From Acidobacteriota bacterium (GTDB lineage: Bacteria > Acidobacteriota > Terriglobia > Terriglobales > Acidobacteriaceae), in NCBI GenBank assembly GCA_021793405.1, contig JAJYSV010000030.1, positions 1-46,745 of the forward strand: DNA of 46,745 nucleotides. The letters run 5' to 3'. The notes under the pieces were generated by a model. It saw nothing but the letters and a program-made list of their open reading frames with translations, had not been told where the DNA came from and did not search any database. This document shows positions 38,600 to 46,745 of the stretch, one piece after another (the stretch's first letter is position 1; each line of letters begins with the position of its first letter). A program made the position numbers and the translations under genes.

Positions 38600-38812
38600 C
38601 TTCCTTCATCGCCTAATGGAATCAACGGTCCTGAGCCATATCAGCCCGCCAAGTGCCAACCCGGCAAGCAGCGAAAGAAACGTTGCTATCCGTTTTCAGT
38701 GATCCCGGCAAGTTTTATGGAGCAGACCTTACACATTCCTGTTTGTCTCGCTGATGGTTCTTATCTTCGGACCGGGCTTCTTTGCATTGGACACGGACGG
38801 ACGGCGATGACC
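38600..38812 (+). pseudogene. possible C-terminal remnant of a DoxX-like membrane protein
   Basis: Between 38403 and the IS remnant no intact gene is seen. In one + frame after an early TGA the string VFSDPGKFYGADLTFL is followed by FVSLMVLIFGPGFFALDTDG and a stop. The ending LxFGPGxxALD resembles the last helix of DoxX-family proteins. The match is short; it may be a fragment cut by the neighbouring IS element. Outside it I see nothing in 38403-38600. Confidence 0.3.
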
Positions 38813-39267
38813 ACGGCTAGATACAGCCAGCCTGCCTCGGTGGCGATATAGGTCACATCGCCTGTCCACGCTGTGTTCGGCTTGTTGGCCGTGAAGTTGC
38901 GATCCAGCAGGTTCGGCGCAATGGGCAACTCGTGGTTGCTGTTGGTGGTCGTAACAAGAAATCTCCGCTTGCCACGCGCCCGAATGCCCTGTTGCTGCAT
39001 CAGCAGACGCACCCGCTCCTTACCTGCGCGCACCCCGCGACGACGCAGCTCTCGCCACATTCGCGGCCACCCATAAGCGCCGCGCAGCTCTGCATGAATG
39101 GCACGAATATGAACCAGTAAGGCCGCATCCGTCATGTAGCGGCGACCAGCGATCTGTTTGCGACGCTGGTGATGCTGGTGATAGCCCGTGAAGCTGACCT
39201 CCAGCACTGCGCACTGCAAGCGAACCGGCCAGAGATGACGACTGCGATGGATATGGGCGTACTTCAT
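38812..39267 (-). pseudogene. IS3-family transposase orfB, truncated
   Basis: The first part matches IS3-type OrfB: QHHQRRKQIAGRRYMTDA, an HTH_21-like IRAIHAELRGAYGWPRMWREL, QGIRARGKRRF and then the start of the integrase core PNTAWTGDVTYIATEAGWLY with the first catalytic Asp. After LYLAVVI the match ends (about 38806-38812) and the frame runs on to a stop at 38761 in unrelated sequence, so two of the three DDE residues are lost. It cannot be active. Confidence 0.8.
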
Positions 39268-39560
39268 CTCTGGCTCCGCGAGAAGTACGCCATAGCTTTT
39301 CCCAAAATGTCGCGTTCCATCTTCAGACGCGCAACTTCGGCTCGCAGTTGTCGGATCTCGATCTGCTCGGCAGTCAACCTGGAACCGCGACCGTTGGCCG
39401 TCAGCTTACCGCCCTTGTGCGCCTGCATCCAGTTCCACAGCGTCTGCTCGACGATGCCTAGTGACCGTGCCGCTTCCGCAATGCTCTGCCCGGACTCCAC
39501 AAGCCGGATTGCTTCCAGCTTGAACTCGTAGGTGTATATCTTCCTGGGTAAACGCTCCAT
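39264..39560 (-). CDS. IS3-family transposase orfA
   Basis: The 98-residue product is the HTH protein of an IS3-type element: FKLEAIRLVESGQSIAEAAR, GIVEQTLWNWMQAHKGG and a leucine-zipper-like end QLRAEVARLKMERDILGKAM. Its stop overlaps the orfB start (ATGA). It looks intact, but the element is truncated. Confidence 0.85.
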   Translation of the reverse strand: MERLPRKIYTYEFKLEAIRLVESGQSIAEAARSLGIVEQTLWNWMQAHKGGKLTANGRGSRLTAEQIEIRQLRAEVARLKMERDILGKAMAYFSRSQR

Positions 39561-39697
39561 CTTGGCTGCCCTTTCGCCATTATCCCAGAGCGTTATGGAG
39601 TACGTTTTGCGGGGGCAAGGTCAAATAGCTTAGCGATTGAATGACTCACCACACTTAGGTTGCTGACCGTTTGTCGTTGTGCCGATAGAGCGGGTGC

Positions 39698-39727
39698 CCC
39701 AGGTCTCGCCTTTGAGACCTGGGTTTT
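39698..39727. terminator. hairpin next to the glycosidase remnant
   Basis: CCCAGGTCTC, loop GCCTTT, GAGACCTGGG: a perfect 10-base-pair stem, followed by TTTTG on the plus strand. It lies about 28 bases beyond the stop of the minus-strand glycosidase, but its T-tract points the other way, so which gene it serves is unclear. Confidence 0.5.
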
Positions 39728-39754
39728 GTGTACCTTTTCTACACGGTCGCGGCG

Positions 39755-41186
39755 CTAGCGCGGCACAGTCTTAAACTCTACCTCCGATGTTACCTGTAAC
39801 GGTCTCACCGATCGGATCGCAATCCGATTTGGATCGAGATCGAAATAGGTGTGAGCGCCCGCTGCTATTAGGCGCACACGATGGGTACCCGGCGGCACAC
39901 CTGAAAGATCCAGGGTGTACATTGTACCGGTCAGATCTTTTGCCACGGCGTGACCGTCAAGCAGGATCGAGTAGCTCTTGGGCTTATTGCCCAGAATGCT
40001 CCAATGGAGCTTTAGGTCCTTCTGCTTTACAGTCGTACCCCCAAAAGGACCGGAGAGGGCCATCACGGTGATATCTGGCGTCTCACCGCGATAGAGTGAA
40101 ATAATCGCGCGAGTCAAGTTCATATAGTAATAACCCCAGCCGCCGCATCCCCGATACGCGCATGTTTTCAGCTGTGTTGGCTCTAAATCGTCGCTAAATT
40201 CGAGATTATACTCGTCACCGTAGATAGAAGCCGAGCCTTCCTTTTGGCCCATGAACTCATTCCACTGATGGATTTGAATGAACTTTGGGCGGTTTGCGAA
40301 CGCTACCTTCCAACTATCGATATACGGAGCGCCGTGGTCCCGGCCAATTGCATTCGGATTGAGCCAGCCTTTCGGCGGAAATGCGGCAGGCGTTACAACC
40401 GTTTCTTCAGCTTTTCCGTCTCTAATAGTAACTTTCTGTTGAATATCTCCGTCCATCCAGGACCACATCCCGCATCTCTCCGCATGTTCTACCTGCAGTT
40501 GCGTCGCCATCCAGCGAACAGTCCATCCCGAGGCATTCAGCGGCGCCTCAGCTAAATCTGTTGTAAGTTGTTTGCAAGGATCTGCCGCGTTGTAGAGAAT
40601 GGTTAGCAAAGGTTTGCCATCGTAATATAGCCAAAGATCTTGGTATTTCGGATTATCGCGATAATTGATATCCAACCAATTGATAATTTCATTCAACCTT
40701 TGGACTTTATGCGGAGTTGGGGGTCCATTTAGCAGACCCAGCATGAAGACCATCTTAGGCGTATATTTTCCCTCTTTTTCGAGCTCTAACGAAGTCTGGA
40801 ACATGAGCGCCACACTTCGCTCCAACTCGTGGGTCACTCCAGTGCTTCTCCCAAGCCGGCGTGGACCAAAGCATGTTGCTCCAATCAATCAACAACCAAT
40901 TAATCCCCAATTGGTGAAACCAATCGAAGTGCTTTTTCAATATGCTTGCATCGTAAGAACTGTATTTGCCAAGGATTGGGACTGCCTCTGCGGTTTGCCA
41001 GGAGCTAGCGCCCTCGGTAAAAAAGTTTTCATATTGGATGCCGATCAATGAGCCCTTGACATTATCTGCATCAAGCCGGTGCATAAAGGGGGCTTGAGAT
41101 GACAGCCCTTCCCGCTCTTGCGCACCTAGACTTGTGACAATAAACGTCGCCAGGATAATGGGGAAGACCGCTCGTACTATACGCAT
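39755..41186 (-). pseudogene. frameshifted GH71/99-like glycosidase
   Basis: Two minus-strand frames join into one protein of about 476 residues. The first, from ATG at 41186 (after GAGAGGAGTTTGCGC), has a signal peptide (VFPIILATFIVTSLGA), then IGIQYENFFTE, PILGKYSSYDASILKKHFDW and WLLIDWSNMLW. The second continues with THELERSVALMFQTSLELEK, MVFMLGLLNGPPTP, DLWLYYDGKPLLTILYN and QIHQWNEFMGQ. The switch is near 40830-40845, and the total length is a multiple of three plus one, so a one-base insertion fits. The layout is like secreted glycosidases of the GH71/GH99 type, with a C-terminal beta domain. It could be a sequencing error rather than decay. Confidence 0.65.
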
Positions 41187-41355
41187 GCGCAAACTCCTCT
41201 CAAACGAATCGTTACCAGCTTTGAAATCTCTTATTGCCCTAACTGTGCGCGTTGTGTCAGCAACTTGCCTCGCCAAGCTGTTTTCCGCGTGTATTGACGA
41301 ATTCGTCCATCAAACCCATGAACTCTTACGCCGGGAAGTGTCCATGGGTTTACTG

Positions 41356-41505
41356 TTAAAACTTTATGTAGGCTTCAAACTGCAAGACGCGTGGAGTATT
41401 GGCTTGGCTGCTGACGGTACCGAAGGTAGTGCTCGTGATATTTGTTCCGATTCCTCCGAACTGCACACGGTTCAACACGTTGAAAGCATCAGCCTGGAAC
41501 CTGGA
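41356..41505 (-). pseudogene. 3' remnant of a TonB-dependent receptor
   Basis: The minus strand reads RFQADAFNVLNRVQFGGIG, then TFGTVSSQANTPRVLQFEAY, then IKF-stop. This is the typical last stretch of acidobacterial carboxypeptidase-regulatory/TonB-dependent outer-membrane proteins, ending in Phe. It starts within the same DNA that ends the SDR gene, in a different frame, which marks a recombination junction near 41505. Confidence 0.6.
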
Positions 41506-41884
41506 TGGCGAATTTAGTTGCGTGAATGCAGCCTTTCACATGAACATTGAAAGTCTCGTCCCAAATCTCAGGACTCGTGCCAACCACATCGCCGTAACGC
41601 TGAATCCCGGCATTGCTTACCAGTACATTGAGAGCCCCATAACGTTGCATAACCTCATCGAATGCACGGCGCACGTCCGATTCCGCCGCAACATCGCACA
41701 TTTGGAAACTTGCCGTGTGGCCCTCATTTACAAGTGCATGAACCGTAGCCAGCGCGGCTTCTGCGTCACGATCTAGAATGGCAACGGAAGCGCCAAGCTT
41801 ACAAAATTTTCTCGCTGTAGCCGCACCAATTCCTATCGCGCCTCCGGTGACGACCGCCACCTTTCCGTCGAATCTAATATTCAT
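41489..41884 (-). pseudogene. truncated short-chain dehydrogenase (SDR)
   Basis: The start is a normal SDR: KVAVVTGGAIGIGAATARKF (TGxxxGIG cofactor site), ILDRDAE, CDVAAESDVRRAFDEV and LNVLVSNAGIQRYGDV (NAG motif). After FNVHVKGCIHATKFAI it ends at residue 131, before the catalytic YxxxK, because the DNA changes into the TonB-receptor remnant. It cannot be active. The ATG at 41884 begins the family sequence; an ATG at 41908 in frame is preceded by AGGAGA at a long distance. Confidence 0.7.
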
Positions 41885-42140
41885 AGCACTATCCGGCTCG
41901 TGACCCATATCCACTTGGTAATTCTCCTGGTTTCTAAATCTTTTGTTTGGCCAACTTTTGCCCGCACGCATCGGTTTGATCGCTGCATATATGCCACCGT
42001 CCCCAGTATAGCGACATATAGAGTGCCGCCCTGGACCCACGCTAGGCTACTCGGCCCCAAATGTTGACAGCATCTGCTGTCTTTGTAAGAGTAAGAACTG
42101 CCGCCGCTTTCGCGGTGGCCAGCTAGCCCCTGGTATCCAG

Positions 42141-42227
42141 GCCGAAGTGGCGGAATTGGCAGACGCGCATGGTTCAGGTCCATGTACTCGCAAGGGTGTG
42201 GGGGTTCGAGTCCCTTCTTCGGCACCA
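42141..42227 (+). tRNA. tRNA-Leu (anticodon CAG), CCA encoded
   Basis: GCCGAAG pairs with CTTCGGC as acceptor stem, followed by ACCA. The D-arm is GCGGAATTGGCAGACGC. The anticodon stem CATGG/CCATG encloses TTCAGGT, giving CAG, and a long variable arm (class II, as expected for Leu) leads to GGGGGTTCGAGTCCCTT as T-arm. tRNA genes are common integration sites, and the repeat-rich accessory DNA starts directly after it. Confidence 0.93.
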
Positions 42228-42290
42228 GACTTTCTGATAAGTTGTTGACGCGTCTCGTAAATGTAAGATTCTGAAAGACTTGGATGGCGT

Positions 42291-42317
42291 CAACACAATC
42301 AACGCAATCAACGCAAT
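42291..42317. repeat. three tandem 9-mers after tRNA-Leu
   Basis: CAACACAAT, CAACGCAAT, CAACGCAAT follow each other without spacing, about 65 bases after the tRNA. Confidence 0.8.
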
Positions 42318-42321
42318 ATGG

Positions 42322-42377
42322 CTTTGTAAGGTCAGTTTGTCTCTTTTACCTTACAAAATGGGAACCACCTTACAAAG
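42322..42377. repeat. inverted repeat set CTTTGTAAGG / CCTTACAAA / CCTTACAAAG
   Basis: CTTTGTAAGG (42322-42331) is the reverse complement of CCTTACAAAG (42368-42377), with a nine-base copy CCTTACAAA (42349-42357) between them. One plus two inverted copies within 56 bases resembles recombinase, transfer or initiator binding sites rather than a terminator. Confidence 0.75.
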
Positions 42378-42408
42378 CGATTTCAGGGCTTTTCGGGGGT
42401 TCCGAGAA

Positions 42409-42452
42409 ACACACAAGTCCACCAAGGAGTTCACCCTGGTGGACTTGTGTGT
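42409..42452. repeat. perfect 16-base-pair inverted repeat
   Basis: ACACACAAGTCCACCA (42409-42424), 12-base loop, TGGTGGACTTGTGTGT (42437-42452). No T-tract follows, so it is less likely a simple terminator. The rest of 42228-42672 holds the other repeats listed here and no convincing gene. Confidence 0.8.
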
Positions 42453-42549
42453 TGGTTCAGCGATGATTTAGGGAATAGCGCAAGCCTTGCGACGAAGGCA
42501 GTGATGACGCGGCACATATGATTTCGCTGACGGCGCATTTTGATTTGAA

Positions 42550-42582
42550 CAAGCCGAGCCCTTGCTGTGGGCGCTCGGCTTG
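42550..42582 (-). terminator. hairpin downstream of the unknown minus-strand gene
   Basis: CAAGCCGAGC and GCTCGGCTTG form a 10-base-pair stem about 90 bases after the gene that stops at 42673. On the minus strand it is followed by TTCAAATCAAAA. Confidence 0.5.
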
Positions 42583-42672
42583 TCTCAAAAGGCCTTGACA
42601 GCCCCATGGAACAGCCGTAGGAACAGCCGTAAAAGGTCAATGCCTAGCCAGGGACATTGGCGAGAACGAGAC

Positions 42673-43455
42673 TCAGCTTTCTTTCATTGGTAAAACACCA
42701 TGTTCGAGAGTCAGCCGCCGCTGGATCCAGATTTCCTCTTCCTCTTTCCGAGTTGGGTTAACTGCGAGTTCCCCGGCGCGCTTCTCAGCCTTGTTCATAG
42801 CGGTCTCTCGAATTTCAAATTCGGGGGCTATTGCCATCATAATTTTCGCAAGCCATATGACCCGGTGACCAAACCACTCCTCGTCGGTGGACTTCGACGG
42901 GCGTGTGATTCGGTACAGTTCCGGCAAGTTGATCTTCTTAGGCAGTTGGATAGAGGCTGGAGGCGGACCCAACTCTCCCCGCGTGAATCTCCTCACGTCC
43001 TCCAGAACGATCGGAAGATCAAAATCGCGAATTGGCTCATCAGGCAAGGCATTTTTGCAAAAGTCCAAGATGGTGTCGGCGGCCTTGTCGCTCGGAGCGC
43101 CGGATTTTTTCTCTTCAATCAGCCTCTCCTGCCCCGATGTTTTAGCATCCCTGACCGCCTTTCTTGCCAATGACTTTTTCACCGATTCCCCCTCCTTCAA
43201 GGAGTTTCGATCCGCGCTGGGCAGTGAGGGCAATGTCATATATCTGCGAAGTGTGGTCTCGGGTACGCCCAGATCAGATACAAGGCCTCGGATCGAGCAG
43301 CCGTGGTTGAAGAGATCTCGAATAAAGTCACCACGCTGGATGTCATCCAAGTGTTCCCAATCCTCGCGCAGCTTGAGAATGAGCGGCCTCACTTCCGGTG
43401 AGCCCGCGATTTTCCGGTGCGCCGTTTTCCTCTTACGGACTGTAGCCTTGCTCAT
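42673..43455 (-). CDS. unknown protein with a central helix-turn-helix
   Basis: The 260-residue product has a basic start (TVRKRKTAHRK), then a helix-turn-helix-like segment CSIRGLVSDLGVPETTLRRY near residues 53-72. Next come a Lys/Glu-rich linker, LDFCKNALPDEPIRDFDLPI and IWLAKIMMAIAPEFEIRE, and an acidic end. The HTH has some resemblance to ParB/KorB-like proteins, not enough to name it. Its start overlaps the stop of the small frame upstream (ATGA), so they were a transcription unit. DNA binding is likely; the function is unknown. Confidence 0.6.
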   Translation of the reverse strand: MSKATVRKRKTAHRKIAGSPEVRPLILKLREDWEHLDDIQRGDFIRDLFNHGCSIRGLVSDLGVPETTLRRYMTLPSLPSADRNSLKEGESVKKSLARKAVRDAKTSGQERLIEEKKSGAPSDKAADTILDFCKNALPDEPIRDFDLPIVLEDVRRFTRGELGPPPASIQLPKKINLPELYRITRPSKSTDEEWFGHRVIWLAKIMMAIAPEFEIRETAMNKAEKRAGELAVNPTRKEEEEIWIQRRLTLEHGVLPMKES

Positions 43456-43721
43456 TTTTTCTTATTCTCCTTTAGCTTGATTCGTTTCTGGACGAACTCG
43501 AAGAGAAACTCCTGAGCTTCGCGCCGTTGGCCATTCTGAAGCATGTAGCGGAAGTGAAATTTCCATATCCTGCCAAGGCGGGAGTATCGGACAAACAGCC
43601 GAATTACGTGCCGGAGTTCCCGCGGATCAGGAATTTAAAACCCTTCATAGCGGATCGCTGTTTCGGCGATTGCAGTCAATTGGTCAATGACCATCCGATG
43701 CACGATCCCGCGACCTTTCAC
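43452..43721 (-). pseudogene. small frame interrupted by TAA between two unknown genes
   Basis: From a GTG overlapping the previous stop (GTGA), the minus strand reads VKGRGIVHRMVIDQLTAIAE, then TAIRYEGF, then a TAA, and in the same frame LRHVIRLFVRYSRLGRIWKF, LQNGQRREAQEFLFEFVQ and KLKENKKK, with a stop that overlaps the next start. Both junctions are tight overlaps, so a coding frame of about 90 codons is likely, broken by one stop codon. No family recognised. Confidence 0.4.
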
Positions 43722-44347
43722 CCCTCTACCACCTTGAAATAGGCCAGATGGAATTTCATCCATCGAAGGTGCGACTGCCATTCTTTTGACATCTCTGCAA
43801 ATTCAGAGCGTGGCGTAAATTTCAAAGAACTGCGGGTCGCGCGCTTCATGTTCCGCTCGAGCGATTTGATTACTGGCCCGGTTTGTTGCTTCCTTTTCTT
43901 GATCGCTGTCCGGTCGAGACCGAGAGTTTTCTTTGTTTTCGCGTCCTTGCGCCGGGCGTCGTGAACATTCCTGCGTAAGAGCTGCAGATTGACGCGGGCG
44001 GCGTAGATGGCAGCGCGAACCTCGATGGCACTCATCTCGACGCGGCCGCCGGTCGTTGCTATGTGCTTCATGCGGATCCAAAGCGCACGAATGCGATCCG
44101 TCATCGCGGGGCGATAAGTACCGTCGTCGAACCCACGCGGCAGTGGACACACTCTGAATGAATACGCGAACTCACAGGTTCCAAACTTTTCCCTGCTCAG
44201 AAGGGCGAGAACGAGAAAGTTGAGGCCGGGCCAGATGACCGACATCTGGGTTTTGGAGAGACGCATTTTGACCGCAGCTGGATCTGTGTCCATCGGACTC
44301 TTGAGCCTTACATGATGTGCGGGCATGTTGGCGCGCAGAGAACGCAC
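43718..44347 (-). CDS. unknown basic protein
   Basis: The product of up to 209 residues begins MRSLRANMPAHHVRLKSPMD and is rich in Arg and Lys, with LNFLVLALLSREKFGTCEFA, a helix-rich IEVRAAIYAARVNLQLLRRN and a very basic segment KTKKTLGLDRTAIKKRKQQT. No start signal is clear; the second Met at residue 8 is an alternative. It overlaps the small frame downstream by one GTGA. I recognise no family. Its basic charge suits nucleic-acid binding. Confidence 0.5.
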   Translation of the reverse strand: MRSLRANMPAHHVRLKSPMDTDPAAVKMRLSKTQMSVIWPGLNFLVLALLSREKFGTCEFAYSFRVCPLPRGFDDGTYRPAMTDRIRALWIRMKHIATTGGRVEMSAIEVRAAIYAARVNLQLLRRNVHDARRKDAKTKKTLGLDRTAIKKRKQQTGPVIKSLERNMKRATRSSLKFTPRSEFAEMSKEWQSHLRWMKFHLAYFKVVEG

Positions 44348-44788
44348 GTTAGGGGAGTTGGTGGCGTCGGAGCTCGGCTCGCCCGGCGAACGGTTCGAAG
44401 GGAACCCCTAATCCTACCCCTTATTGAAATAGAAAATCACGCGTCGTCACTGGATTGATAACTCTTCGGTAATCACGAACTCGGATTTCCGCTTCAAGTC
44501 GGCCTCTTTCCATCGTCAAAGCGCTTTTGAGAACAGCTTGAGTCTCTGCACGGTATCGATCATGTTAGAGGTTCACACAATCTCGGTTCATTGTTTCTGA
44601 CATTGCCGACACGTGCATCAACCTTCCATGCTTTCATGGTGCCGGAATTCGTGGTTTCAGGTACCGAGGGTCAAAAATCCACAAGGCGGGGCAGGGGTTA
44701 GCCGGAGTCGTCGCCAGCCGTAACACTACTTAACACAGACTCTAACCTTACGAACACCGCGCCACGGGAATAGACCCATAGGCAGGGA
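44348..44788. other. non-coding stretch
   Basis: I see no convincing gene, RNA or repeat in these 441 bases. Confidence 0.4.
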
Positions 44789-45034
44789 ATGCCGACAAGG
44801 GACGGTAGGAAGAGAAAAGCGGCACGGAACGGGGGTGAATTCCTCTTTTTGCCTTTGCCGATTATTGATATAGGACCGTCATGTCGTTTCAACCATCGAG
44901 CATTCGAGCGTTTCAAACGCTTTAGGCAGCATGTGAAGGAGATCGCGCTGCACGATCATTTGTCGGATTACCGCCTCGCTTTCGACGAAATGAATTATCC
45001 GTTGGGGCTCGTCTCGGGAACGATCTCATGGTGA
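44789..45034 (+). CDS. unknown small frame, possibly a 3' gene remnant
   Basis: The last half of this 81-residue frame, AFERFKRFRQHVKEIALHDH, then LSDYRLAFDEMNYPLGLV and SGTISW, has the look of real coding sequence. It loosely recalls the end of plasmid replication initiators, which have a similar DYRxxxD segment. The first half (MPTRDGRKRKAARNGG) is low in information. No good start is seen, so it may be a remnant. It ends five bases before the convergent ImmA/IrrE gene. Confidence 0.3.
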   Translation: MPTRDGRKRKAARNGGEFLFLPLPIIDIGPSCRFNHRAFERFKRFRQHVKEIALHDHLSDYRLAFDEMNYPLGLVSGTISW

Positions 45035-45038
45035 GATG

Positions 45039-45599
45039 TCAATAAACGGAGCGTCGATGCCGGATACGCGCGCCGCTGCCGTTAATACGCATGCGAAGCA
45101 AAGGCAAGCTGACTTCATAATGCGAACATGCGGTCTCGTCATCGAATCCTTGCCGCAGGATATGAAGGGCGGATTCGTCGGAGATGAGGATCGTAGCGCC
45201 AAGCCAACTCGCTTCCTCTTCGAGTTCGCGGTCACGATTTCGGCAGCCCGAGTTGTCGATCGGGTATGTAAAGGGATGGCCAAGCAGGACATGCGAGATT
45301 TCGTGCGACAAGTTGCTGCGTTGCCTGTACGGATGGTGGGAATCGTTATGGACGATGATGCGCTTGCTGGTGTCGAACCGGATTGTGGTCGCAGAAAAAG
45401 CCTCCGAATCCGTGATCGAAAGCTGCCGAACGGCTTGTGGATTCTCCTTAGCAAAAGCCGACAATGGCACGATCTCAATTTCAAGCCGCTGCGCAATAAT
45501 CTCCAGATCGATCGGCGCATAAGGTGGGCGATCCTGCCCGCGCCGCAGTCGTATCGCTAACCTGTTGGCGCTTGCCTTGAAACCTCGCCTGAGGCTCAT
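45039..45599 (-). CDS. ImmA/IrrE-type metallopeptidase
   Basis: The 186-residue product has the zinc-protease motif SHEISHVLLGHP (HExxH), preceded by RFDTSKRIIVHNDSHHPYRQ and followed by RELEEEASWLGATILI with the third-ligand Glu region. This is the ImmA/IrrE family, which often cleaves an XRE-type repressor made by the neighbouring gene. The start overlaps the end of the XRE gene by four bases, so the pair is one unit. It could act as a switch for the locus on its right. Confidence 0.85.
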   Translation of the reverse strand: MSLRRGFKASANRLAIRLRRGQDRPPYAPIDLEIIAQRLEIEIVPLSAFAKENPQAVRQLSITDSEAFSATTIRFDTSKRIIVHNDSHHPYRQRSNLSHEISHVLLGHPFTYPIDNSGCRNRDRELEEEASWLGATILISDESALHILRQGFDDETACSHYEVSLPLLRMRINGSGARIRHRRSVY

Positions 45600-45952
45600 T
45601 TTTCCGGTCCCCTAAATCGCTTATAGGCTGCTTTTAATATCTCTTCGATTGCCTCAGCGCTTTTCCGGTTCAGGCTCTTGTCGGCTCTCAGAACGGCAGT
45701 GATCTGGGCGATCGGTTCTGCTTCCTTCTTCTTAGAGCCCTTTGCTGGAATAAACATCTCTGCCCTCAAGCCGGACCACCTCAACAACGCTCCTAATCCG
45801 TCAATATCCGGCCCTTTTCCTTGCGACATGCGGGTTAACGTGGAGGCGCTAACTCCTGCTTCTGCAGCAACTTCCTTCCAGGTCATTCCCATTGCCAATC
45901 GTTGGCTATCGAGTGCCGCCCGGAATGCCTCGGTGTCGAAATTTTCTGTCAT
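45596..45952 (-). CDS. XRE-family helix-turn-helix regulator
   Basis: The 118-residue product has a clear XRE HTH: AMGMTWKEVAAEAGVSASTL followed by TRMSQGKGPDIDGLGALLRW. The C-terminal half is basic (PAKGSKKKEAEP, then AIEEILKAAYKRFRG). Start at 45952 because GGAGGAGAATGG lies just before that ATG; the longer frame has no signal. It is divergent from the multiubiquitin gene at 46064, so their promoters share about 110 bases. It is likely the repressor that the adjacent ImmA/IrrE peptidase may inactivate. Confidence 0.85.
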   Translation of the reverse strand: MTENFDTEAFRAALDSQRLAMGMTWKEVAAEAGVSASTLTRMSQGKGPDIDGLGALLRWSGLRAEMFIPAKGSKKKEAEPIAQITAVLRADKSLNRKSAEAIEEILKAAYKRFRGPEK

Positions 45953-46063
45953 CCATTCTCCTCCAGAAATTGCGATATTGCAATTGCGCGTCACTTGTGC
46001 AATTATGATCCTGCGATTCGAGTTTAGCAACCGCTGACCTCAGTCGCAATCGAGGAGGCGAAA

Positions 46064-46363
46064 ATGGAACAAACTCAGTCATCTTCACCCGAACTGCACG
46101 GCCATCATCATCCGCACCATCAGCCAAGCCCCGAGACCGTGGAATTCCACGTCAATGAAAAGCACGTTCGGATGGAGGGCCACACGCATACCGGGCTCCA
46201 GATCAAGGAGGCGGCAAAAGCCCAAGGGGTCAAAATCGAGCTCGATTTTCTCCTTTACCTGCTTCGCCATCACCAACCAAACCAGCTGATCGCCGACGGC
46301 GAAGACGTGCACCTTACGCACGAGAGCCGGTTCCACGCGATCGCGGATGACGACAATTCGTGA
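46064..46363 (+). CDS. multiubiquitin-domain protein (single ubiquitin-like fold)
   Basis: The 99-residue product has a His-rich start (HGHHHPHHQ) and then one ubiquitin-like domain of the multiubiquitin type: VEFHVNEKHVRMEGHTHTGL, QIKEAAKAQGVKIELDFLLY, LIADGEDVHLTHESRFHAIA. It ends in DDDNS with no C-terminal glycine. GAGGAGG precedes the ATG. The next gene is an E2-like protein, so this is the modifier of a bacterial ubiquitin-like conjugation system. Activating enzyme and JAB peptidase, if present, lie beyond the window. Confidence 0.8.
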   Translation: MEQTQSSSPELHGHHHPHHQPSPETVEFHVNEKHVRMEGHTHTGLQIKEAAKAQGVKIELDFLLYLLRHHQPNQLIADGEDVHLTHESRFHAIADDDNS

Positions 46364-46375
46364 GGTCTGTTGGCC

Positions 46376-46630
46376 ATGACGCCGGAAGTGCAGGAAGCAA
46401 TTAAAGAGATTTCCGAAGCGTACCCGGATTGCCGGATCGATTCCGTGGATGACGGTGAAGGCGGTGCTGTCGTAACGGTGCAGGACATCCCGCTCGATGG
46501 CTCGCTATACGTGCAGACGCACACGTGGGTCGGGTTTCATATTACCCACACCTATCCGTATGCGGATGTCTATCCGCATTTTGTTAGGCACGATCTGAGC
46601 CGGCGTGATGGGAAGGCGCTAGTACCGTGA
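46376..46630 (+). CDS. E2-like protein (prokaryotic E2 family E type), apparently short
   Basis: The 84-residue product begins MTPEVQEAIKEISEAYPDC and has DDGEGGAVVTVQDIPLDG, THTWVGFHITHTYPYADVYP and HFVRHDLSRRDGKAL, which I recognise as the family-E type E2 fold found beside multiubiquitin genes. Family members usually run on for another 35-45 residues; here a TGA at 46628-46630 ends the frame. The only cysteine is in YPDC near the start, so no E2-type catalytic cysteine is visible. ATG at 46376 is 12 bases after the modifier gene. Confidence 0.75.
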   Translation: MTPEVQEAIKEISEAYPDCRIDSVDDGEGGAVVTVQDIPLDGSLYVQTHTWVGFHITHTYPYADVYPHFVRHDLSRRDGKALVP

Positions 46631-46745
46631 CCGCATAAATGAGTAATTCATTTTCCGGCGCGCGTGTTTTCTGGTGAACTTCCAGCGGATAGTGATGTGA
46701 TCGCTATTCGCACGTCGATTACACGCTTTGGTCTGACGGCGCAGG
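46631..46745. other. right edge of the window, unassigned
   Basis: None of the three + frames carries on the E2 family's usual C-terminal pattern (a Trp-containing strand, then SRRSNRW-like residues). One frame reads RYSHVDYTLWSDGA at the very edge without recognisable relation. A start of the next gene could lie here. Confidence 0.3.

Follow-up and report, generated by a model that had tools for sequence, protein, structure and literature searches.

What does a gene pair for an XRE-family regulator and an ImmA/IrrE-type metallopeptidase do beside a gene for a ubiquitin-like (Ubl) modifier, and is the cassette that it adjoins still whole? The question is raised by the right-hand end (positions 45039 to 46745) of contig JAJYSV010000030.1 from an Acidobacteriota bacterium (assembly GCA_021793405.1), which was analyzed over its entire length of 46,745 bases, hereafter the window. 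Our analyses indicate that this interval very probably holds the promoter-proximal half of a Ubl conjugation cassette of the 6e/Bub type, broken in its E2-like gene by an IS630 insertion sequence (IS); in its intact form, the cassette would be de-repressible and non-canonical.

The open reading frame (ORF) at 46064 to 46363 on the plus strand encodes a 99-residue protein with a single β-grasp domain. This protein matched the Pfam family Multi_ubiq (PF14452) with 26.8 bits, above the curated cut-off of 24.5 (E 6e-6), which bears out the multiubiquitin-type modifier proposed in a first-pass annotation of the DNA. The E2-like gene that the annotation placed next to the modifier indeed adjoins it, but only the 5′ part of this BubB-like gene (46376 to 46621, plus strand) is present. 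The ORF runs to a stop codon at 46628 to 46630, within the IS, and its 84 residues comprise the first ∼82 codons of a gene of ∼128 codons; nine full-length homologs have 126 to 139 residues. In a profile built from full-length relatives, the ORF (46376 to 46630) covers positions 1 to 81 of 127 (106.9 bits, E 3.3e-30), and the fragment is 49% identical to a full-length homolog from the same phylum. The Q-x-S-R motif and the last helix are lost.

The last 127 bases of the window (46619 to 46745, minus strand), some 7% of the interval, are a repeat, namely the terminal part of an IS630-family element whose insertion site is CTAG (46619 to 46622). Contigs C88 and C41 of this genome both begin with the same terminal part, with 126 and 117 of the 127 bases identical, and all three copies adjoin CTAG with different flanking DNA each time. 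The reverse strand encodes 40 residues of a transposase C terminus, 22 of which are identical to the C terminus of a transposase from a genome of the same family (E 2e-12). That relative's transposase fragment matched DDE_3 (1.1e-16) and the NCBIfam model transpos_IS630 (9.6e-20, with 71.2 bits against a whole-protein cut-off of 100); the 40-residue window piece alone matched no family. CTAG is presumably the preferred target of IS630 elements, and four of eight aligned relatives have Leu-Gly at the position where CTAG falls in the window gene. Judged from the DNA sequence, the window E2 gene is thus interrupted by an IS630-family insertion.

A tblastn search with the E2 fragment returned eight plasmid records, all with Ubl, E2 and E1 genes in a row (genes taken from the annotation, unnamed ones identified by alignment), from hosts including Mesorhizobium, Deinococcus, Nostoc, Mycolicibacterium and Rhizobium. 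A scan of genome contigs gave 91 pattern matches, 61 of which were confirmed as loci, most with the same three genes in a row; their phyla include Proteobacteria, Chloroflexi, Actinobacteria, Cyanobacteria, Acidobacteria, Nitrospira, Planctomycetes and others. These 61 loci, seven further plasmids (that of Mesorhizobium AR07 occurred in both sets and was counted once) and two genomes of the window's own phylum make up the 70 relatives analyzed here. In intact relatives the common order is an ImmA-XRE pair divergent from Ubl, E2 and JAB/E1 genes, and an annotated ImmA–helix-turn-helix (HTH) pair is arranged as in the window in Deinococcus sp. D7000, Nostoc sp. ATCC 53789 and Rhizobium ruizarguesonis. 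Ubl and E1 genes are each present in 68 of 70. The loci L080, which stops 49 bases past the match, and L098 are without E1; L098 and L099 are partial matches without Ubl. The nearest uninterrupted relative seen comes from a genome of the same class (G525, L130:3729-6679), where a divergent XRE gene precedes Ubl, E2 and E1 in a row, with no ImmA match within the 10 kb taken.

The first-pass annotation expected an E1 and a JAB peptidase gene to follow on the right. Neither lies within the interval, since the contig (G000:C6) ends at 46745, nor was a JAB-E1 gene found in the assembly; the expectation holds for the relatives, in which the 68 E1 proteins carry JAB residues in their N-terminal half. 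Counted against the familiar JAB motif in the 68 aligned E1 rows, the residues are Glu (67/68), His (67/67), His (67/67), Ser (67/67) and Asp (67/67). Four zinc-type cysteines in two CxxC pairs are also present (65/65). A profile of 35 E1s matched Citrobacter BubCD over both halves with an E of 7e-46, and with the AlphaFold model of a Binatia E1 (locus L047; pLDDT 84.9), the top eight Foldseek matches were all BubCD chains (E 1.8e-31 to 1.5e-28), followed by the E1 of 6H77 (UBA5) and MccB. The BubCD mutants named in PDB titles are D104A and Y370F. Given a residue offset of two that is taken from the alignment, D104 corresponds to the JAB Asp, and the counterpart of Y370 is a Tyr present in 65 of 65 aligned rows.

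The E2 family of the relatives is also set apart by its conserved residues. Across 70 rows no cysteine column reaches 85%, and the Ser-Arg pair (67/67) and the Gln (65/67) of the Q-x-S-R motif are retained; the invariant Ser may be the transfer residue. The AlphaFold model of the L047 E2 (pLDDT 93.7) matched BubB best (Foldseek E 8.9e-6; VIA Z 13.8, root mean square deviation 2.8 over 127 residues), then UEV domains (Z 9.9) and then E2 enzymes (Z 8 to 9). A Z near 8 alone would be unconvincing, but in this predicted model the BubB match stands clear of the rest. The corresponding E2 sequence profile matched BubB with an E of only 0.08.

These features place the relatives close to two known systems. 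The 6e operon of Iyer, Burroughs and Aravind (2006; PMC1779556) is described, in its section 14 and Table 1, as having a Ubl protein with one to three domains, an E2/RWD-like protein without a catalytic Cys and a JAB domain N-terminal to E1, the same as in the relatives; that passage makes no mention of XRE/ImmA genes, a DDNS tail (the modifier's C-terminal Asp-Asp-Asn-Ser) or an operator. The window itself contributes the Multi_ubiq modifier and 81 of the 127 E2 profile positions to such an operon, and differs in being truncated and having no E1. The second system is the Bub pathway, represented by Citrobacter BubA, BubB and BubCD (PDB 9EA4, 9EAE and 9EAV), with which our comparison uses PDB titles and sequences. 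Intact relatives match BubCD over its JAB and E1 parts, the L047 E2 is closest to BubB by fold, and the JAB Asp and the Tyr mutated in 9EAV align, with the above offset, with invariant residues. In contrast to the Bub proteins, the relatives mostly have one detected modifier domain and the tail DDNS, and their E1s have two CxxC pairs, the first of which is absent from BubCD (the second is not covered by the alignment). The homology to BubCD and BubB holds for the intact relatives and not for the window copy.

Divergent from the modifier gene are the two regulatory genes, in the order that the first-pass annotation gave. The peptidase (45039 to 45599, minus strand; 186 residues) matched Peptidase_M78/IrrE (PF06114, E 2.5e-13) and has the HExxH motif HEISH. 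The XRE protein (45596 to 45955, minus strand) matched HTH_3 (E 1.2e-5); its listed start at 46030 is probably too far upstream, and starting at the ATG at 45955 leaves 119 residues with the HTH match kept. The first-pass annotation had also allowed that homologous modifier/E2 pairs might never occur with XRE/ImmA genes, which fails for the family. Among the 67 relatives with at least 1.5 kb of upstream sequence (3 of the 70 were skipped), an ImmA-type gene lies within 2.5 kb upstream in 42, a divergent ImmA plus XRE in 29, a divergent XRE without ImmA in 14 and neither in 10. Removal of E2s at least 90% identical left 60 loci, 36 with ImmA and 27 with the divergent pair. Downstream, no ImmA was found within 4.5 kb of the E2 gene in any of the 67, shorter flanks included. 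The upstream count takes in one helicase-sized ORF with an ImmA-like N-terminal part and the motif HEIGH, which is annotated as an ATP-dependent helicase in Mesorhizobium huakuii (L019:1833-5189) and is a possible protease-helicase fusion. Four other loci (L014, L057, L068 and L084) have upstream ORFs of 403 to 419 residues that apparently carry XRE and ImmA in one protein.

The association of an XRE/peptidase pair with such cassettes is, by passages of two papers, already published. In PMC4963859 (2016), 70% of PF14452 proteins adjoin XRE/DUF955 loci, and in PMC13373217 (2026), 219 of 544 Bub operons have CapW or CapH+CapP. The latter suggests one account of the window pair, which we regard as possible though rather doubtful, namely that it is CapH+CapP proper, a peptidase activated by single-stranded DNA that cuts the repressor after DNA damage, as it does beside the cyclic oligonucleotide-based antiphage signaling system (CBASS). 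The window pair shares with CapH+CapP an HTH protein and an HExxH peptidase next to a divergent operon. Its best PADLOC models are capP (E 1.1e-6) and capH (E 0.0014), but the match to capH is a weak one, due in part to generic HTH similarity; whether the present branch is among the 544 operons is not visible from the passages of PMC13373217. In those passages and in those of PMC10904395, CapH+CapP and PprI-DdrO are both HTH repressor–metallopeptidase systems controlling adjacent or stress genes, and PprI and CapP respond to single-stranded DNA. In PprI the HEXXH motif lies at residues 92 to 96 and the GAF-like domain includes Arg207 and Arg267; PprI deprived of this domain loses both single-stranded DNA binding and activation (PMC10904395, same passages). 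The window peptidase, however, spans only 88 residues from HEISH onward (202 in a Deinococcus plasmid relative), with no room for a C-terminal GAF-like domain, and therefore the single-stranded DNA model is not simply transferable to it. CapP itself needs the GAF-like region.

The gap between the XRE and modifier genes contains a predicted operator at 45969 to 45984, which reads ATTGCGATATTGCAAT and is the sole perfect ATTGC-N6-GCAAT in the window, where copies with up to one mismatch number four, about the chance level. The same 16 letters are present in the corresponding gap of a Dehalococcoidia locus (L058), and the consensus across phyla is ATT(G/T)C-N6-GCAAT. Of 41 XRE-Ubl gaps, counting the window's, 7 hold a perfect copy of the motif and 18 a copy with no more than one mismatch; for the remaining 424 kb of these loci, the corresponding counts are 0 and 7. 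Since the motif was first spotted in five loci, the other 36 gaps served as a separate test; two gaps were too long to be included in the motif analysis. With up to one mismatch it occurred in 13 of these, which ranked it first of 1,024 five-letter arms, ahead of its own variant ATTTC (9) and of the best other arm of equal composition (1). A spacer of 6 likewise gave 13 of 36 and the next best spacer (11) gave 4. The count is inflated by several motif loci that are closely related. Searched gap by gap, palindromes were mostly no better than in shuffles preserving base counts only: in 3 of 34 gaps no more than 3 of 60 shuffles did as well, and for the window 14 of 60 did. A promoter scan of the window gap gave a single weak minus-strand site. 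The shared palindrome supports, by comparison of the gaps, control of the cassette by XRE. Probably it marks mainly one XRE subgroup, with other subgroups using other sites.

The operator also bears on a second account, which we consider unlikely: that XRE/ImmA is a toxin-antitoxin, or addiction, module that merely stabilizes the cassette. This was proposed for the Synechocystis pSYSX multiubiquitin cassette with Slr6056-Slr6057, where Ubl, E2 and E1 genes stand, as here, beside an XRE gene and a DUF955/COG2856 (ImmA-type) gene. The available passages of PMC4963859 read the XRE/DUF955 loci beside 70% of PF14452 proteins as toxin-antitoxin pairs and contain no operator, and the occurrence of the cassette on eight plasmid records would suit such a module. 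Against an obligate pair, a divergent XRE persists without ImmA in 14 of the 67 relatives, and 13 of 14 gaps of ImmA-less loci hold the motif with no more than one mismatch. An antitoxin that lacks its toxin yet retains its operator is more easily understood as a regulator. Two sites (up to two mismatches) lie 35 to 41 bases apart in 11 gaps, although autoregulation alone could also produce this. Because XRE keeps its operator without ImmA, the toxin-antitoxin reading is weakened, and the comparison suggests that XRE is a regulator first. A regulator-operator pair common to Proteobacteria, Chloroflexi and others makes control of the cassette directly testable and helps to separate a regulator from a toxin-antitoxin module.

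We favor a de-repressible conjugation cassette, which in an intact copy would work as follows. XRE bound to the ATT(G/T)C-N6-GCAAT sites observed in the gaps would repress both divergent genes. By analogy with CapH-CapP and PprI-DdrO, a stress signal would lead the ImmA-type protease to cut XRE and so open the operon. The JAB-E1 fusion, whose domains are observed, would activate the modifier, with its JAB half trimming or deconjugating, as expected from BubCD. Finally, the E2-like protein, with no conserved cysteine and an invariant Ser-Arg, would take part in transfer to targets. In the window, the last two of these four steps could not run from the locus itself, because the conserved Q-x-S-R region is gone from the E2 and the search for an E1 found none; the ORFs of XRE, ImmA and modifier are intact, and their regulation could still operate. 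The inducible expression through a protease-released repressor that the first-pass annotation envisaged thus gains from the ImmA/XRE association and the shared palindrome, and is held back by a window ImmA too short for the single-stranded DNA-sensing domain and by the broken cassette.

Because no JAB-E1 gene was found downstream, we class the window copy as a broken remnant, probably dead. The searches behind this classification covered an assembly of 4.6 Mb in 137 contigs, rated 100% complete. The JAB-E1 of a relative (478 residues) matched its own genome only in ThiF cores on contigs C56 and C17 (query residues 182 to 337), without the JAB part; a PF14462 search of the genome gave nothing above the cut-off, and the remaining part of the E2 profile had no other match across the assembly at E ≤ 10. 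An intact cassette continuing on another contig was rejected, as the E1, PF14462 and E2-profile searches found neither E1 nor the remaining E2. On C88 and C41, which start with the same IS end, the listed ORFs, inspected by eye, likewise included no such cassette. A related account holds that the cell carries an intact cassette and that the junction with the IS reflects either misassembly or a minority variant. We judge this to be quite improbable: the break does fall at a repeat and a contig end, but the junction lies 127 bases within the contig, at CTAG and with the same IS end as the two other copies, whose flanks differ, and neither the E2 C terminus nor an E1 is present elsewhere in the assembly.

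Several results weigh against the reading as a broken, de-repressible cassette. A small E1-bearing contig could have been left out of the assembly, because the smallest of the 30 contigs (of 137) whose length was seen is 5.5 kb, or a copy could act in trans; we therefore record the E1 as not found in the assembly and not as deleted. Pfam E2_E reached at best 24.7 bits (cut-off 25) in six full-length relatives, three of which had no match, so that "family E," the term used in the first-pass annotation, is a fair guess. No nearby ImmA was seen in 25 of 67 relatives, and the ImmA of the window is too short for PprI's single-stranded DNA-sensing domain. The motif, so frequent in ImmA-less loci, was found in only 5 of the 27 gaps of ImmA-bearing loci, the window's among them. 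Perfect copies in the 36 test gaps numbered only 2, a count equaled by two other arms. Finally, on the Deinococcus plasmid, one of those sharing the gene order of the window, the E1 is shortened and lacks the Cys pairs, and transposase genes lie next to it. The window copy belongs to an operon type already in print and is dead or dying, and it is judged less useful than the relatives found through it; its operator and the tail of its modifier are the parts worth following.

That tail, at 46349 to 46360 (plus strand), is Asp-Asp-Asn-Ser (DDNS), without Gly-Gly. The same end is found in 65 of the 68 relatives having a Ubl, the exceptions being L019 (HEDS), L091 (DNNS) and L085, whose ORF has a different end and is perhaps frameshifted. 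A single modifier domain was detected in 64 of 68, some with long N-terminal parts. Within the phylum, 19 of 396 genomes have Multi_ubiq proteins, and among the proteins of those 19 the DDNS end occurs only in the window and in G205 and G298, the two phylum genomes that also carry an E2 of the window's branch. The other ends are TxxS, GGSS, FGNP, INPG plus variable residues, or otherwise, and two of the proteins are fused to an E2-like part. Sixteen of the 19 genomes are outside the DDNS branch; among the Multi_ubiq loci (L133 to L154), seven of those outside the branch have ImmA-like matches within ∼1.5 kb. Comparison of these ends suggests processing at INPG where a variable stretch follows it and, for the fixed DDNS, that the end itself is recognized. 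A literature search for the DDNS tail gave no match, nor did an NCBIfam scan of the Ubl and E2 or a search with the Ubl of 50,697 phage records.

DDNS is thus fixed where canonical ubiquitin has Gly-Gly, and the partner E2-like protein keeps Ser-Arg and no cysteine. A bolder interpretation, which we hold only tentatively and regard as improbable, is a glycine-free and cysteine-free Ubl cascade, with the modifier activated at its nearly invariant Asp-Asp-Asn-Ser end, a Ser/Tyr-based E1-E2 relay and an XRE repressor switch whose operator is kept across phyla. MccB activates the C-terminal Asn of MccA; perhaps, by speculative analogy within such a cascade, the final Ser is cleaved off by the JAB domain, which would leave Asn at the end. 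If conjugation works from the DDNS tail, the known chemistry of ubiquitin-like systems would be widened. A Bil/CBASS-type Ubl defense system, defined by a Gly-terminated modifier and a catalytic Cys E2, shares the same broad parts (Ubl, E2 fold, E1 and JAB) but is scarcely credible here, given 65 of 68 modifiers ending in DDNS without Gly-Gly, no conserved E2 Cys, and nearest structures that are those of Bub, with Cap2 far weaker.

The link to phage defense drawn in the first-pass annotation found no backing: the literature passages report no protection by this branch, and those of PMC13373217 state that protection against phage has not been shown for the Bub operons, its nearest characterized relatives. 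The annotation also placed the cassette in an accessory region, a defense or mobile island, starting at a tRNA. The tRNA-Leu is real (42141 to 42227), and with its 94 upstream bases (42047 to 42230) it recurs at 99% identity on contig C38, a duplicated tRNA segment. An island could not be proved from integration next to the tRNA, as neither of the two ORFs beside it matches an integrase. These two adjacent minus-strand ORFs (42673 to 43455 and 43718 to 44347), between the tRNA and the peptidase gene, have no Pfam, NCBIfam or PADLOC match. A copy 75% identical to 42527 to 44393 lies in the same genome (G000:C46:6557-8452), ∼1 kb from a phage-type integrase (PF00589, 2.8e-11), and among the matches listed it is the only other occurrence of the two ORFs. 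A search of 100 genomes with the Ubl matched only its own genome and one of the same class (G525), and none of 9 others of the genus. The stretch 41000 to 46620 matched somewhere in 97 of the 100 (own included); among the matches listed, other genomes match it only through the tRNA and the region to its left. These results support an accessory cassette region, with indirect support for an island.

Contig C88 (locus L007, 1 to 18743), which starts with the same IS630 end, is a probable defense island: it has two ORFs that by eye are XerC-like integrases, an AbiEii/AbiEi pair (PF08843, 8e-28; PF09407, 1.8e-20) and, read from the ORFs by eye, apparent type I restriction-modification genes. Further to the left in the window (38761 to 41276), two overlapping minus-strand ORFs (39755 to 40888 and 40755 to 41276) resemble, on inspection by eye, a single gene divided by a frameshift. 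Adjoining them is a transposase pair (HTH_21/rve and HTH_Tnp_1; 38761 to 39560), which we take to be IS3-like.

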